This document shows positions 43,034-54,888 of a stretch of 64,000 nt of DNA, one piece after another (the first letter of the stretch is position 1; each line of letters opens with the position of its first letter). The translations under genes were made by a program, and so were the position numbers. Source of the stretch: Pedobacter helvus (lineage in GTDB: Bacteria > Bacteroidota > Bacteroidia > Sphingobacteriales > Sphingobacteriaceae); the NCBI RefSeq assembly GCF_005925325.1, contig NZ_SRMP01000002.1:584531-648530 (forward strand), given 5' to 3'. The notes below the pieces were generated by a model. The model worked only from the letters and a program-made list of their open reading frames with translations, did no database searches and was not told the DNA's origin.

Positions 43034-43468
43034 TTACCAAGACATTTCAAAAACCTTCTGTTCTTTAGTTGAAAAAAATCCCAATGCCTGATAGAATTTA
43101 TGGGTCTCAGTACGTAGCACATTACAGCGAATTCGGATAGTTGAGATACCTCGGTTTTGGCTCCACTTTTTACTGGTTTCAATCAGGTTTTTGCCAATTT
43201 GCTGGCCTCTTGCATTTTCATCCACCACTAATCCGGTTACCTCTACAAATAACGGACTTTCTACTCGTAGGCAAATTAAACAGTGTAGCCAACCTACAAT
43301 TTTGCCTTCAGCTTTGGCTACAAAAATAGCATGATCTTTTAATGGGATAATTTCTTGTAATCTTCCGAGTAGCATTTCGAAATTATTCCCGTAACCCAAT
43401 TGTTCAGAGAGAGAAAGAATTTCTAGGGCTTCGGCTTCGGTAATACTTTCGAGTTGGCTAATGTCCAT
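43034..43468 (-). CDS. GNAT family N-acetyltransferase
   Basis: 144 residues, one GNAT domain with the acetyl-CoA loop in VDENARGQQIGKNLIETS and YQALGFFSTKEQKVF at the end. The substrate is unknown. Its start codon overlaps the stop codon of the PAP2 gene by one base, so it is translationally coupled to the sphingolipid-inositol gene run and is its last member, whether or not it acts in that pathway. Confidence 0.85.
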   Translation of the reverse strand: MDISQLESITEAEALEILSLSEQLGYGNNFEMLLGRLQEIIPLKDHAIFVAKAEGKIVGWLHCLICLRVESPLFVEVTGLVVDENARGQQIGKNLIETSKKWSQNRGISTIRIRCNVLRTETHKFYQALGFFSTKEQKVFEMSW

Positions 43469-44412
43469 TAAGAAATTAATTTTAGCATACTTTGTATAAA
43501 GTTAGCTAAAGGTTTTCGTTCTTTTAACCAATTGAATGATATTATCCCTATGGTAGCTGTAGTAATACCAGCAAGTACATCTGCCAGATAGTGATGACTT
43601 GTGTAAACGGCAGCAAACCAAATTCCAACCATTACGGTGATGAAAAAGAAATTCGCTTTGCGAAATTTTCCTTTGGTACCATAATAAACCACAATTAAAG
43701 GATAAGCCGAGTGTAGGGATGGCATTGCGGCAAATACATTTGAGCCTTTGCTGTAAATTGACTTAAATAGCTCGATGCCGAAGAAGTTATCGAAACGAAC
43801 CAATCCGGCCGTGTTGCCAGGAGTACCCGCTATAAATTCAAATCCATGTTGCTGTACGTACCAAGGTGGGGCGGCAGGATAGAGGTAGTAAACCACAAAC
43901 CCCAGTAAGTTTACCCAAACAAAAGTGAGTAGAAAGTTTAAAAAATTTCTACGTTCGTTGCTAAAAAAGAGAAAGGCTGCAAATGCCAATGGCACAGGTA
44001 CCCACATCAAATAAAAGAACCCTGTTAGCACATCTAAAAACGAGTTGGTATGTAGTAACCAATACTCATTAGGTGTAAGTAGTTTTCCTCCTTGTTCTAT
44101 TCCAAAAACGCTTTTTTCGAAGTTGTAAAGATCTTCAATATGTACAGCGTTATAGTTGTAGTTAGGAAAAGCCTTCATGTAATCATAGATGATCCAATAT
44201 ACAATGAAGATGGAAAAACCGATGATGAATTTTCTGGTGATAGCCGATACATAATAAAGTACATTGAATATACCTATCAGTACCAGCTGGTCTGTTTTAT
44301 AACCTACTAAAAAATAAGAAAGAACTAAATAAAGTGCCGAAATACCAAGCGTTAATGGTAAATCTTTTTTAAGGTCTCTTTTGGTTCCCTCAGCGGGAAT
44401 ATCTGATGTCAT
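43468..44412 (-). CDS. PAP2-superfamily membrane enzyme, Aur1-like; candidate inositol-phosphoceramide synthase
   Basis: 314 residues with about seven transmembrane helices. The lipid-phosphatase catalytic motifs are MPSLHSAYPLIV and TSHHYLADVLAG (His-x3-Asp), as in the PAP2_3/Aur1 group. Yeast Aur1 moves phosphoinositol from phosphatidylinositol to ceramide. The upstream genes make both substrates, so this assignment is well supported by context; a different head group (ethanolamine) or plain phosphatase action remains possible. It begins 47 bases after the hydroxylase gene, in a gap containing a GGCGAAA/TTTCGCC hairpin. Confidence 0.8.
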   Translation of the reverse strand: MTSDIPAEGTKRDLKKDLPLTLGISALYLVLSYFLVGYKTDQLVLIGIFNVLYYVSAITRKFIIGFSIFIVYWIIYDYMKAFPNYNYNAVHIEDLYNFEKSVFGIEQGGKLLTPNEYWLLHTNSFLDVLTGFFYLMWVPVPLAFAAFLFFSNERRNFLNFLLTFVWVNLLGFVVYYLYPAAPPWYVQQHGFEFIAGTPGNTAGLVRFDNFFGIELFKSIYSKGSNVFAAMPSLHSAYPLIVVYYGTKGKFRKANFFFITVMVGIWFAAVYTSHHYLADVLAGITTATIGIISFNWLKERKPLANFIQSMLKLIS

Positions 44413-44428
44413 TTTATTTATGTGTTGG

Positions 44429-44446
44429 GGCGAAAAATGTTTCGCC
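44429..44446. repeat. GGCGAAA/TTTCGCC hairpin inside the operon
   Basis: Arms GGCGAAA and TTTCGCC around a 4-base loop, a copy of the hairpin family seen at 36860, 36907 and 59722. Its position between two co-directional genes may cause partial termination or mRNA processing. Confidence 0.6.
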
Positions 44447-44459
44447 GTAGCAGTAATTT

Positions 44460-52482: not shown

Positions 52483-52558
52483 CTTCTTTTAAGCTTTTCG
52501 CTTTAGGCTTTCAGCTTTATATCTTTCTTCAGTCTTTCTAACTTTCGTCTTACAACTT

Positions 52559-53680
52559 CTATATCTTCTTTTCTAGAATTCTATATTCTCTGTATAGTTT
52601 ACCGCCTATGTTTTCAATTGGTCGGTTCACCATATCGTTATCTTCTAAAGTCCAGCTCGCTTCGGCATACTGAAAATTTCTGGCTTTAAAGGCTTTAATG
52701 ATACGGCCATACAAGCAAGCTTCGATCCCCATTTTTCTATATCCATCAATTACGCCCAGTAACATGATACGGATACCGTTTATTTTCTTTTTGCCTAATA
52801 ATAATTTGATTAAACCGGTCGGGAAAAGCCTTCCTCGCTTAATTTTAATTAGTATTTGGTTAATGTCTGGAATAGCTAGAGCAAAAGCTACAATTTTGCC
52901 TTCTTGCTCAGCGATGTAACAGAAATCAGTATCTAAAACCAACTTTAAATCATTGGCTGTGTAGTTAAATTCTTTATCGGTCATCGGTACAAAACCTAGG
53001 TTTTTATCCCAAGCCTTATTGTAAACCTCTTTCAATGCAGCTGCTTCTTCCTTAAACTTTTTCAAGTTTATTTTTCTGATGATGATGTTGCTTCTTTTTA
53101 GCCTGTTTTCTAATCCATCTATCAAGCCTACCGATCTGTCATCGTAATTGCCGGCAGTATATCTATATGCTCTTAAATCTACCTTTTTGGTAAAGTCGAA
53201 GTCTTCCAATAAGTCAAGATAATAAGGCGCATTATAGGGCATCATGGCTACTGGCGGCCCATCAAAACCTTTAATTAATAAACCGCAAATATCATTGGTA
53301 GAAAAATTTACAGGTCCCATTATGGAGGTTTGCCCGTTTTCTTTTAACCAATTTTGAGCAGCATTTAACAATAAGCTACTCACAGTTTTATCGTTAACTG
53401 TATCAAAAAAACCAAAGAAACCTTCTGTTACTCCTTTTGTAGCATTATGGTTTCCGTTGATAATTGCAGCAACTCTACCCACTATTTTCTCGCCCTCTAC
53501 CGCTAAAAATAACTGCATCTTAGCATGGTCGTGAAATGGATGTTTACCAGGAGTTAGCATATCACGTTGTGCAATATGCAATTCAGGTACGTAATAAGGA
53601 TCATTTTTGTAAAGCTCGTGAGGGAAATCTACGAATTCCGCCAAAAGCTTTTTGTCTGATACAGCTACAATTTGCGCCAT
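52559..53680 (-). CDS. GNAT-fold protein adjacent to serine palmitoyltransferase; candidate ceramide synthase
   Basis: 373 residues, soluble. GNAT-like features: HAKMQLFLAVEGEKIVGRVA near 58-75 and a second half with FCYIAEQEGKIVAFALAIP and LLGVIDGYRKMGIEACLYGR, the last resembling an acyl-CoA loop. It starts 2 bases after the palmitoyltransferase stop. Bacterial ceramide synthases described in Caulobacter are GNAT-like acyltransferases of about this size, so N-acylation of the sphingoid base is the best guess. Identity with that family must be tested. Confidence 0.72.
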   Translation of the reverse strand: MAQIVAVSDKKLLAEFVDFPHELYKNDPYYVPELHIAQRDMLTPGKHPFHDHAKMQLFLAVEGEKIVGRVAAIINGNHNATKGVTEGFFGFFDTVNDKTVSSLLLNAAQNWLKENGQTSIMGPVNFSTNDICGLLIKGFDGPPVAMMPYNAPYYLDLLEDFDFTKKVDLRAYRYTAGNYDDRSVGLIDGLENRLKRSNIIIRKINLKKFKEEAAALKEVYNKAWDKNLGFVPMTDKEFNYTANDLKLVLDTDFCYIAEQEGKIVAFALAIPDINQILIKIKRGRLFPTGLIKLLLGKKKINGIRIMLLGVIDGYRKMGIEACLYGRIIKAFKARNFQYAEASWTLEDNDMVNRPIENIGGKLYREYRILEKKI

Positions 53681-53682
53681 TT

Positions 53683-54888
53683 CTATATCGAAGCCTTAAC
53701 TAAATCTACACTTGCTGCCTTAAATGCCAGCTTCAATTTATCGATAGCTCTTTCTATTTGCTCAAATGTATGAGTAGCCATTAATGAGAACCTAATTAAC
53801 GATGCATCTGAAGGAACCGCTGGAGAAACTACAGGATTTACAAAAATTCCATTCTCTTGTAAGATATTAGTAATGATGAAAGTTTTTGCATTATCTCTGA
53901 TGTAAATTGGCAAAATTGGACTTTCTGGATGTCCGATTTCAAAGCCTGCTTCTAACAATAATTTCTTCGCATAGTTGGTGTTAGCCCACAATTTGTCGAT
54001 ACGCTCTGGTTCCGACTCGATAATGTCCAAAGCGGCAAGCACACTCGCTACAGAGGCAGGTGTCATACTTGCGCTAAACATTAATGAACGTGCTCTGTGC
54101 TTAATAAATTCAATGGTATCTTCATCTGCAGCAATAAAACCACCTAAAGAAGCCAATGATTTGCTGAAAGTACTCATGATCAAATCAACCTCTTTAGTAA
54201 GGTTGAAGTGAGAAGCGGTACCAGCACCATTGAAACCAATCACACCTAAACTGTGTGCATCATCCATCATGATGTTCGCCCCAAATTCATCTGCAATTTT
54301 TACCATTTCAGGTAAGTTTACCATGTCGCCTTCCATACTGAAAATACCATCCGAAACGATTAGTTTGGCAGCATCTTCCGGTAATCGGCTTAGTTTAGCA
54401 CGCAAATCGTTCATGTCGTTGTGTGCATATTTTATAGAACGAGAGAATGATAATCTGCTACCATCAATGATAGAAGCGTGGTCGTACTCGTCTAAAATTA
54501 AATAATCGTTTCTGTCTAACAAGCAGGAGATTACACCCAAGTTTACTTGGAAACCTGTGCTAAATAATACTGCCGCTGGTTTGTCTACGTAGGCAGCTAG
54601 TCTTTGCTCTAATTCAAGGTGTATATCGAGAGTTCCGTTCAAAAATCTAGAGCCTGCGCAGCCGGTTCCGTATTTTTCAATTGCTTTTTGGGCCGCTTCT
54701 TTTATTTTTGGATGGTTGGTTAAGCCTAAATACGAGTTTGAACCAAACATCAAAACCTCTTTGCCATCAATGATAACTTCTGTATCTTGAGCAGAAGATA
54801 TGGAGCGAAAATATGGATAAAGTCCTTGCTCTTTAATTCTTTTGGCATCTTGAAATGAAGCTACCCTATCTTGTAATTTTTTACGCAT
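53683..54888 (-). CDS. spt: serine palmitoyltransferase
   Basis: PLP-dependent alpha-oxoamine synthase condensing serine with a long-chain acyl-CoA to 3-ketosphinganine, the first step of sphingolipid synthesis. 401 residues. The PLP lysine is Lys243 in [13 protein letters not shown]; His137 (DEYDHAS) stacks on the cofactor, and Asp210/His212 ([10 protein letters not shown]) bind it. The block [20 protein letters not shown] and the C-terminal PVVSPAVP are, from memory, nearly the same as in the Sphingobacterium enzyme, which favours this over KBL or BioF. First gene of the lipid cluster; the GNAT gene follows after 2 bases. Confidence 0.94.

Follow-up and report, generated by a model that had tools for sequence, protein, structure and literature searches.

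The gene block and its parts

The window, which is the whole 64,000-nucleotide stretch of DNA analysed, carries ten ORFs with Pfam or NCBIfam matches to named families between positions 43468 and 54888 of the minus strand; all features below lie on that strand. In transcription order, the first four encode a serine palmitoyltransferase (SPT; 53683..54888) for the first step of ceramide synthesis, a GNAT-fold candidate ceramide synthase resembling bCerS (52559..53680; PF00583, 28.2 bits, cut-off 20.7), a CerR-like reductase of the NAD-dependent epimerase type (51490..52482; PF01370, 102.1 bits) and a myo-inositol-3-phosphate synthase (MIPS; 50040..51356; PF07994, 349 bits; PF01658, 112-115 bits). 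These are followed by a PgpA-type phosphatase (49324..49803; PF04608, 134.8 bits), a GtrA membrane protein (48945..49319; PF04138, 68.5 bits), a DUF5686 protein (46381..48942; PF18939, 185.6 bits), a CDP-alcohol transferase (45097..46377), an FA2H/SCS7-like fatty-acid hydroxylase (44460..45092; PF04116, 62.2 bits) and an AUR1-like PAP2 protein (43468..44412; PF14378, 89.1 bits). AUR1 and SCS7 are yeast names.

The ORF list and the profiles confirmed ten named families on one strand over this interval, as the first-pass annotation had it. The families in its gene list were right, but it had overlooked a DUF4833 domain at the C-terminus of the CDP-alcohol transferase and a small GNAT gene (43034..43468; PF00583, 55.5 bits) that shares 1 nt with the PAP2 gene. 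The latter is kept in the closest relatives only (5 of 80 loci, L089-L093) and probably lies outside the pathway.

From SPT to PAP2, successive genes are separated by 2, 76, 133, 236, 4, 2, 3, 4 and 47 nt. The earlier description of the gaps within 43468-49803 as mostly 2-4 bases was correct, the 47-nt gap being the single exception. Directly after the MIPS stop codon, the repeat listing (plus strand) and a reading of the sequence placed an 11-bp inverted repeat (49999..50027), a possible attenuator or terminator from which a T run on the minus strand is absent. Given this repeat and the gaps of 76, 133 and 236 nt, the block could be transcribed as more than one unit.

Conservation of the block in relatives

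We scored 11 parts per locus by bit thresholds, with DUF4833 counted apart, in the best 80 named loci of at least 550; 68 of these had adequate flank on both sides. In all 68 flank-complete loci, the parts present occurred in the same order and on one strand, so the block is not due to chance, and in 35 of them all 11 parts were found. The first-pass annotation had called the combination notable: the block is real, but it is not peculiar to this genome and recurs among other Bacteroidota, in Pedobacter, Mucilaginibacter, Pontibacter, Chitinophaga and relatives. Pedobacter alluvionis (L110) is one culturable relative in which the block is complete.

None of four parts is always needed at the locus, since the reductase was missing at 12 of the 68 loci, the hydroxylase at 10, PgpA at 7 and DUF4833 at 5. 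The inositol arm occurred without SPT at 4 of the 68. In a sample across the class, SPT was joined to the inositol arm in 5 of 13 genomes with a PIP synthase over the cut-off, within the sequence stretches examined (present in the window and L054-L057, not in L059-L066). Within the window's genus, 10 of the 11 listed genomes that lack PIP synthase also lack an SPT over the cut-off, a pattern in which the block tends to be present or absent as a whole.

The ceramide arm

The SPT passes the curated NF047600 cut-off for Bacteroidetes-type serine palmitoyltransferase (739.4 against 640 bits), and its best PDB matches are the serine palmitoyltransferase entries 8guh/3a2b (615 bits). Homologues of the GNAT protein adjoin SPT in 9 of 11 next-best-match genomes (these nine at 53-64%, all 11 at 49-64%); no SPT was found near the homologue in the stretches examined of G178 and G117. 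Both genes occur in 59 named loci, and in 50 of these they are no more than 30 nt apart. Fold class and this linkage to SPT make the GNAT gene a candidate ceramide synthase.

The reductase reached no model cut-off in an NCBIfam search, and there are two alternatives to its acting on keto-ceramide: it could reduce 3-ketosphinganine before N-acylation, as in eukaryotes, or it might not be the reductase of the pathway. In B. thetaiotaomicron, the SDR protein BT_0972, which is unlinked to SPT, is described as reducing 3-ketosphinganine (PMC9278070), and the 12 loci that lack the reductase fit the same reading. However, the gene directly follows SPT-CerS in many genomes, even where inositol genes are absent (L067-L070, L223-L231), and we consider these alternatives unlikely. 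The most likely composition of the ceramide arm is SPT, the GNAT ceramide synthase and this reductase. As described in PMC11087976, the Caulobacter spt-bcerS-cerR genes have the same three-enzyme logic with an acyltransferase and a reductase, a likeness drawn from description, fold class and linkage. Caulobacter CerR is reported to be periplasmic (PMC11087976), whereas the window reductase begins with a Rossmann motif and has no signal peptide that we could see, which suggests a different location.

The inositol arm

The MIPS is the sole PF01658 match in the genome. The CDP-alcohol enzyme exceeds the cut-off of NF052561 (PIPSynBT1523) with 405.7 against 350 bits over residues 3-232 (45682..46371; BT_1523-like), and the catalytic pattern quoted in PMC9246714, DX2DGX2AR...GX3DX3D, is invariant in 13 of 13 aligned sequences, the window included.

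MIPS was missing at 9 of the 68 loci. We searched the genomes of seven of these nine, and each had exactly one MIPS match elsewhere, a divergent one, scoring 84-86 bits with PF01658 as against 111-120 in four genomes with an operon copy and 112-115 here; five of the divergent proteins were read against the window MIPS and gave 33-36 bits. Six of the seven loci also lack CerS, with a 59-64% homologue elsewhere in 5 of the 6. All seven fall in one group of the PIP synthase tree, so the change was probably a single evolutionary event.

The PgpA-type protein (BT_1525-like) is the probable PIP phosphatase. As the only PgpA match in the genome, it could instead be the housekeeping phosphatidylglycerol-phosphate phosphatase, with PIP dephosphorylated by something else; BT1525 is reported as refractory to deletion in PMC8791184, and PgpA is missing at the 7 loci noted above. 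Yet PMC9246714 describes a BT_1525 deletion in B. thetaiotaomicron that led to PIP build-up with other glycerophospholipids unchanged, and the position of PgpA within the inositol block is conserved, which makes a purely housekeeping role improbable. The PI arm most likely consists of MIPS, PIP synthase and the PgpA-type phosphatase.

The GtrA protein (BT_1524-like) is a proposed PI flippase. Loss of the GtrA gene in B. thetaiotaomicron lowered IPC and raised PI according to PMC8791184, the behavior of a PI flippase, whereas the TLC of such a knockout is given as unchanged in PMC9246714.

Candidate enzymes for hydroxylation and the joining step

The only PDB matches of the hydroxylase are to SCS7 (E 2e-31), with which its histidine boxes HRxxFH, HGxHH, HxxxHH and HxxHH align. 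SCS7 has a cytochrome b5 domain; the window protein lacks it, and is bacterial and shorter. FA_hydroxylase is a broad Pfam family, and a second member in the same genome is itself fused to DUF4833, so the substrate might be another lipid such as a carotenoid or a glycerolipid acyl chain. We give little credence to this, because the match is specific to a ceramide hydroxylase, with all histidine boxes aligned, and the gene is linked to the ceramide and IPC genes.

For the PAP2 protein (BT_1522-like), the sole NCBIfam match at E 0.001 was NF052609, phosphoinositol dihydroceramide synthase, at 326.9 bits; this is below the cut-off of 480, and we do not assign the protein to that equivalog. In the PDB, AUR1 alone gave significant matches (E 5.8e-20), with the catalytic motifs PSLHS and HHYxxD aligned and kept; the window protein shares the PAP2 motifs but is bacterial and shorter. 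It is therefore a candidate inositol phosphoceramide (IPC) synthase, which would transfer phosphoinositol from PI to ceramide. The first-pass annotation would have given way had profile searches put the PAP2 and CDP-alcohol enzymes into unrelated substrate groups; neither was placed there.

It is very improbable that the inositol genes make only PI (perhaps a PI-based glycolipid), with PAP2 transferring phosphoinositol to, or removing phosphate from, a non-ceramide lipid and the ceramide genes as mere neighbors: the score under the NF052609 cut-off, the functional diversity of PAP2 enzymes, the absence of SPT beside the inositol arm in 8 of the 13 class-sample stretches and the distance of the Bacteroides SPT BT_0870 from BT_1522-1526 (PMC9246714) speak for it, but AUR1 is the sole significant PDB match, the hydroxylase gene sits between the inositol genes and the PAP2 gene, SPT-CerS-CerR and the inositol genes are linked in order in most named loci (SPT in 64 of 68), and BT_1522 is described as needed for IPC in Bacteroides despite the unlinked SPT (PMC9246714).

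We conclude that the locus very probably encodes de novo IPC synthesis, with a 2-hydroxylated (alpha-hydroxylated) acyl chain as the probable form. This prediction from the genes takes the activities and the product from the families identified, their key motifs, the conserved linkage and the replacement MIPS in seven genomes that lost the operon copy, and the family matches support the earlier reading of a PI arm, a ceramide arm and a joining step. The SCS7-like enzyme would hydroxylate the acyl chain in an oxygen-dependent reaction, and the AUR1-like enzyme would join the two arms. The active site of AUR1 faces the Golgi lumen; that of the PAP2 enzyme is therefore expected to face the periplasm. 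With weaker inference, GtrA may flip PI outward, DUF4833 may act on the periplasmic side and DUF5686 at the outer membrane.

A PIP synthase-DUF4833 fusion and a predicted barrel

In the window, PIP synthase is joined through a membrane helix to DUF4833 in a single 426-aa protein. The helix (residues 242-260; 45598..45654) has a Kyte-Doolittle peak of 1.88 and a lysine-bearing N side. The DUF4833 domain (residues 284-423; 45109..45528) passes the Pfam cut-off (PF16117, 158.6 against 23.1 bits), and both Pfam domains occur in all 120 best matches listed for the fusion protein. The AF2 model of DUF4833 (pLDDT 94) is all beta plus one short helix. In other genera DUF4833 is a separate neighbor gene, and such unfused relatives have N-terminal stretches that, judged by eye, resemble signal peptides; we predict an extracytoplasmic beta domain. 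A second FA_hydroxylase elsewhere in the genome is also fused to DUF4833.

The DUF5686 protein has a signal peptide, a carboxypeptidase-regulatory-like domain, a middle beta domain and a C-terminal barrel. In a structure model (pLDDT 80.5, pTM 0.67), residues 462-852 (46387..47559) form a predicted outer-membrane barrel with an Omp85-like fold. The L6 loop motif of Omp85 proteins is [VILFM]RG[FYW]. Unlike the superfamily barrels BamA, TamA and Sam50, DUF5686 has no Pfam POTRA match, and L6 RG[FYW] was absent from the barrel in 36 of 36 sequences; we do not file it as a superfamily member. We found no paper on either DUF4833 or DUF5686.

We tentatively propose, as a possible but doubtful model, that the operon is a lipid assembly line from inner to outer membrane. 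GtrA would flip PI; DUF4833, tethered to PIP synthase or secreted alone, would retain PI or IPC in the periplasm or pass it on; and DUF5686, with its Omp85-like barrel, would assist in inserting the completed inositol sphingolipid into the outer membrane. SPT-CerS-CerR would be a plug-in core to which varied head-group modules attach. The ceramide triad does bear other head-group modules in relatives: a CDP-alcohol transferase, encoded at 7442-8146 of L067, with GtrA in Sphingobacterium-like genomes, and NTP transferase, CDP-alcohol transferase, LPG-synthase-like and HAD genes behind SPT-CerS-CerR-DUF5686 in G242 (L058). The latter set resembles the putative alternative cluster of B. vulgatus and Prevotella outlined in PMC9246714, which shares its product class with the window but runs through CDP-inositol, whereas the window has the PIP route.

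Discussion

The inositol arm is already known as the BT_1522-1526 pathway of B. thetaiotaomicron, where reported knockouts support the MIPS, PIP synthase, PIP phosphatase and IPC synthase roles (PMC9246714, PMC8791184). As there, MIPS, the PgpA-type PIP phosphatase, GtrA, PIP synthase and the AUR1-like synthase lie together, here on one strand, and a carboxypeptidase-regulatory-like protein homologous to BT_1527 is nearby. The window differs in that its PIP synthase bears DUF4833 and its block includes the ceramide genes and the SCS7-like hydroxylase, whereas BT_0870 lies elsewhere (PMC9246714); the word hydroxylase was not found in the main text of that paper. New beyond the first-pass annotation are the fusion, the predicted DUF5686 barrel, the replacement MIPS and the alternative head-group modules on the triad.

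Reports of inositol sphingolipids like those of eukaryotes come from gut Bacteroides and a few other bacteria (PMC9246714), and the predicted IPC synthesis would extend beyond gut bacteria. S. spiritivorum is cited in PMC9246714 as producing ceramide phosphoinositol, and that paper describes homologues of the known inositol clusters as absent or infrequent in Sphingobacterium, barring moderate homology to the alternative cluster; the CDP-alcohol transferase and GtrA module points to a candidate head-group enzyme there. The conserved block would let almost the entire pathway be studied genetically at a single locus. It would also assign DUF4833 and DUF5686 testable roles that bear on how sphingolipids are brought to the outer membrane in bacteria.

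Ten genes on one strand combine a ceramide arm and an inositol arm

The ten open reading frames that the first-pass annotation had placed on one strand of the window were confirmed in position and in family (Pfam, NCBIfam) and lie on the minus strand. In transcription order they encode serine palmitoyltransferase (SPT; 53683-54888), a GNAT candidate ceramide synthase (CerS; 52559-53680), a CerR-like reductase (51490-52482), myo-inositol-3-phosphate synthase (MIPS; 50040-51356), PgpA (49324-49803), GtrA (48945-49319), DUF5686 (46381-48942), a CDP-alcohol transferase (45097-46377), a fatty-acid hydroxylase (44460-45092) and a PAP2 protein (43468-44412), with intergenic gaps of 2, 76, 133, 236, 4, 2, 3, 4 and 47 nt. 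By sequence, the source organism is Pedobacter-like: a cluster named from Pedobacter xixiisoli shares 96% identity with the transferase-DUF4833 fusion protein, and Pedobacter supplies the two nearest rows of the PIP-synthase tree. Directly downstream of the block lie DUF4256 and DUF1801/OmdA-domain genes (41839-42396 and 42401-42979); homologues of both occur with the block in four of 80 related loci (L089-L092), and of the second gene also in L121.

SPT scored 739.4 bits, over the NCBIfam equivalog cut-off of 640, and its closest PDB entries (8guh/3a2b) are serine palmitoyltransferase. The first-pass annotation had proposed that the genes together would make phosphatidylinositol (PI) and ceramide and join them. 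Profile placement put neither the CDP-alcohol nor the PAP2 protein in an unrelated substrate group. The former exceeds the BT_1523 PIP-synthase cut-off (405.7 bits vs 350) and has a catalytic pattern invariant in all 13 aligned sequences. The PAP2 protein has the Bacteroides-type synthase model as its sole NCBIfam match, but scores under that model's cut-off (326.9 bits vs 480), so that the protein is not assigned to that equivalog. Its sole PDB match is AUR1 (E 5.8e-20), with PSLHS and HHYxxD kept. For the hydroxylase, SCS7 is the sole PDB match and every histidine box aligned. The GNAT protein is most likely a ceramide synthase and the reductase CerR-like, judged from fold class and linkage to SPT. 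One match in the genome was found for MIPS and one for PgpA, against two for PAP2_3, of which the second is partial (34.2 bits; cut-off 27) and lies elsewhere. The genome also has a distantly related homologue of the GNAT protein (27%) at another site (G000:C1:689686-690789), and a homologue of some kind was found at E 0.001 in 179 of 247 class genomes.

In the pathway that appears most likely, ceramide would be produced and 2-hydroxylated, PI would arise through the PIP route, and phosphoinositol would be joined to ceramide by the AUR1-like enzyme. The reductase step could fall either before or after N-acylation: in B. thetaiotaomicron, 3-ketosphinganine is reduced by a separate enzyme, BT_0972 (PMC9278070), and in Caulobacter acylation is proposed to come first (PMC11087976). 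The remaining roles are hypotheses. GtrA may flip PI, DUF4833 may act on the periplasmic side, and DUF5686 may act on the outer-membrane side. Loss of BT1524 in B. thetaiotaomicron lowered inositol phosphoceramide and raised PI (PMC8791184), and a GtrA knockout gave no change by TLC (PMC9246714).

The block is conserved among near relatives

A synteny search, which the first-pass annotation had proposed, was run on named loci, the best 80 of at least 550 relatives and thus biased toward near kin; they may partly overlap the genomes of the unnamed sample. Flanks were adequate in 68 (SPT found or more than 8.5 kb upstream of the PIP synthase, and more than 2.5 kb downstream), and in all 68 the parts present keep the same order on one strand. 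All 11 parts, DUF4833 being counted separately, occur in 35 of the 68; missing are the reductase (12), CerS (11), hydroxylase (10), MIPS (9), PgpA (7), DUF4833 (5), SPT (4) and GtrA (3), where parts were called by phmmer with bit thresholds set for this analysis and divergent copies, such as the 138-bit CerS of L134, scored as missing. DUF5686 is present in 80/80. Median neighbor gaps range from -4 to 29 nt, and that between MIPS and PgpA is -1, which makes the 236-nt gap of the window unusual. The loci come from Pedobacter, Nubsella, Mucilaginibacter, Pontibacter, Chitinophaga, Dyadobacter, Arcticibacter and others; two with proteobacterial names (L112, L165) are probably mis-binned metagenome contigs.

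For seven of the nine MIPS-less loci the genome was searched, and each of the seven has a single MIPS match outside the locus. These matches differ in type, scoring 84-86 bits on PF01658 vs 111-120 in four genomes that keep the operon copy and served for comparison, and 33-36 bits to the window MIPS (five genomes whose region was examined). CerS is also absent from the locus in six of the seven; five of these six have a 59-64% CerS homologue elsewhere, and the sixth, a metagenome-assembled genome, has weak fragments only. Because these seven loci form one group of the PIP-synthase tree, the replacement was probably a single event. Even so, it says that a MIPS is retained where the rest of the block is. 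In one Pedobacter genome without CerS in the block, the homologue at another site lies directly next to the gene of an MscS-type mechanosensitive channel (L193:5122-8625); L196 and L197 have a gene of comparable length (about 800 aa) near their CerS homologue.

The PIP synthase is over cut-off in 34 of 151 genomes of the family sample and 13 of 247 of the class sample. Examination of the surrounding stretch in the 12 class genomes besides the window found the two arms joined in 5 of the 13: SPT and CerS are in the block in the window and L054-L057, and L059-L066 are without SPT in the stretch examined. PAP2 is present in 12 of the 13 stretches (absent from L065) and DUF5686 in nine. In the window's genus, 9 of 20 genomes listed have the PIP synthase, and 10 of the 11 without it also have no SPT over cut-off; the exception, G370, has SPT-CerS-CerR alone.

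DUF4833 is fused or separate

In the window, DUF4833 is C-terminal in the CDP-alcohol enzyme and should lie outside the cytoplasm, since it is preceded by a hydrophobic helix (residues 242-260) that has lysines N-terminal to it. Its predicted structure (pLDDT 94) is nearly all beta and gave no convincing match to solved structures. Among the 80 named loci, 47 have DUF4833 fused, 28 have it as a gene of its own and 5 lack it. Mucilaginibacter-type loci L130, L131, L133, L135 and L148 have none at the block, so it is dispensable there, at least at the locus. Family-sample open frames are of fusion size (426-458 aa) in all nine matches of the window's genus and all six of genus g152, and span 236-275 aa in the 18 matches from genus g3 and the single match from g156. 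Parsimony gives seven changes on the tree, at least two forced by well-supported branches; on this sequence tree, the state has switched more than once.

DUF4833 occurs in 23 of 247 class genomes and is beside (8) or fused to (the window) the PIP synthase in 9 of the 13 over cut-off. Of the 26 DUF4833 sites in those 23 genomes, 13 have a CDP-alcohol transferase within 4 kb on the same strand and 13 lack one, so the domain has other contexts. One of the latter is a second copy in the window's genome, about 63 kb from the window, at the C-terminus of a 494-aa fatty-acid hydroxylase-family protein (L087:8689-10173).

The ceramide triad occurs with other partners

The SPT-CerS-CerR triad is found with different partner genes in relatives. 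In G242 (L058:6521-18603), DUF5686 comes next, then genes for an NTP transferase, an unknown protein, a CDP-alcohol transferase, an LPG-synthase-like protein, a HAD hydrolase and a PfkB kinase, and finally DUF4833; this module looks like the alternative inositol cluster of PMC9246714. Genus g2, most likely Sphingobacterium from the names of its protein relatives, has the triad and then GtrA in 9/9 genomes searched (L067:7013-11552, L223-L230). In eight of them the gene between CerR and GtrA encodes a divergent CDP-alcohol transferase (about 230 aa), and the ninth (G340) has a weak match at that position. Because homologues of the known inositol clusters are absent or infrequent in Sphingobacterium, save moderate homology to the alternative cluster (PMC9246714), the transferase is a candidate for the enzyme of the phosphoceramide head-group step.

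Relatives of the g2 transferase (52-55% identity) occur with GtrA and DUF4833 in L074:6128-10040, L075 and L082; in L074, the one of the three scanned, genes for an SDR and a PhyH dioxygenase come before them. A sphingolipid is an unlikely product at these loci, since their genomes have no SPT over cut-off.

Relation to published clusters

According to PMC11334938, sphingolipid-producing Bacteroidota do not have their three ceramide genes near one another; the loci described here are a counter-example to that statement. In the literature on these pathways, as far as available, we found no description of the joined block, the hydroxylase, the DUF4833 fusion or the Omp85-like barrel predicted for DUF5686. 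The inositol arm is that of B. thetaiotaomicron BT_1522-1526 (PMC9246714, PMC8791184).
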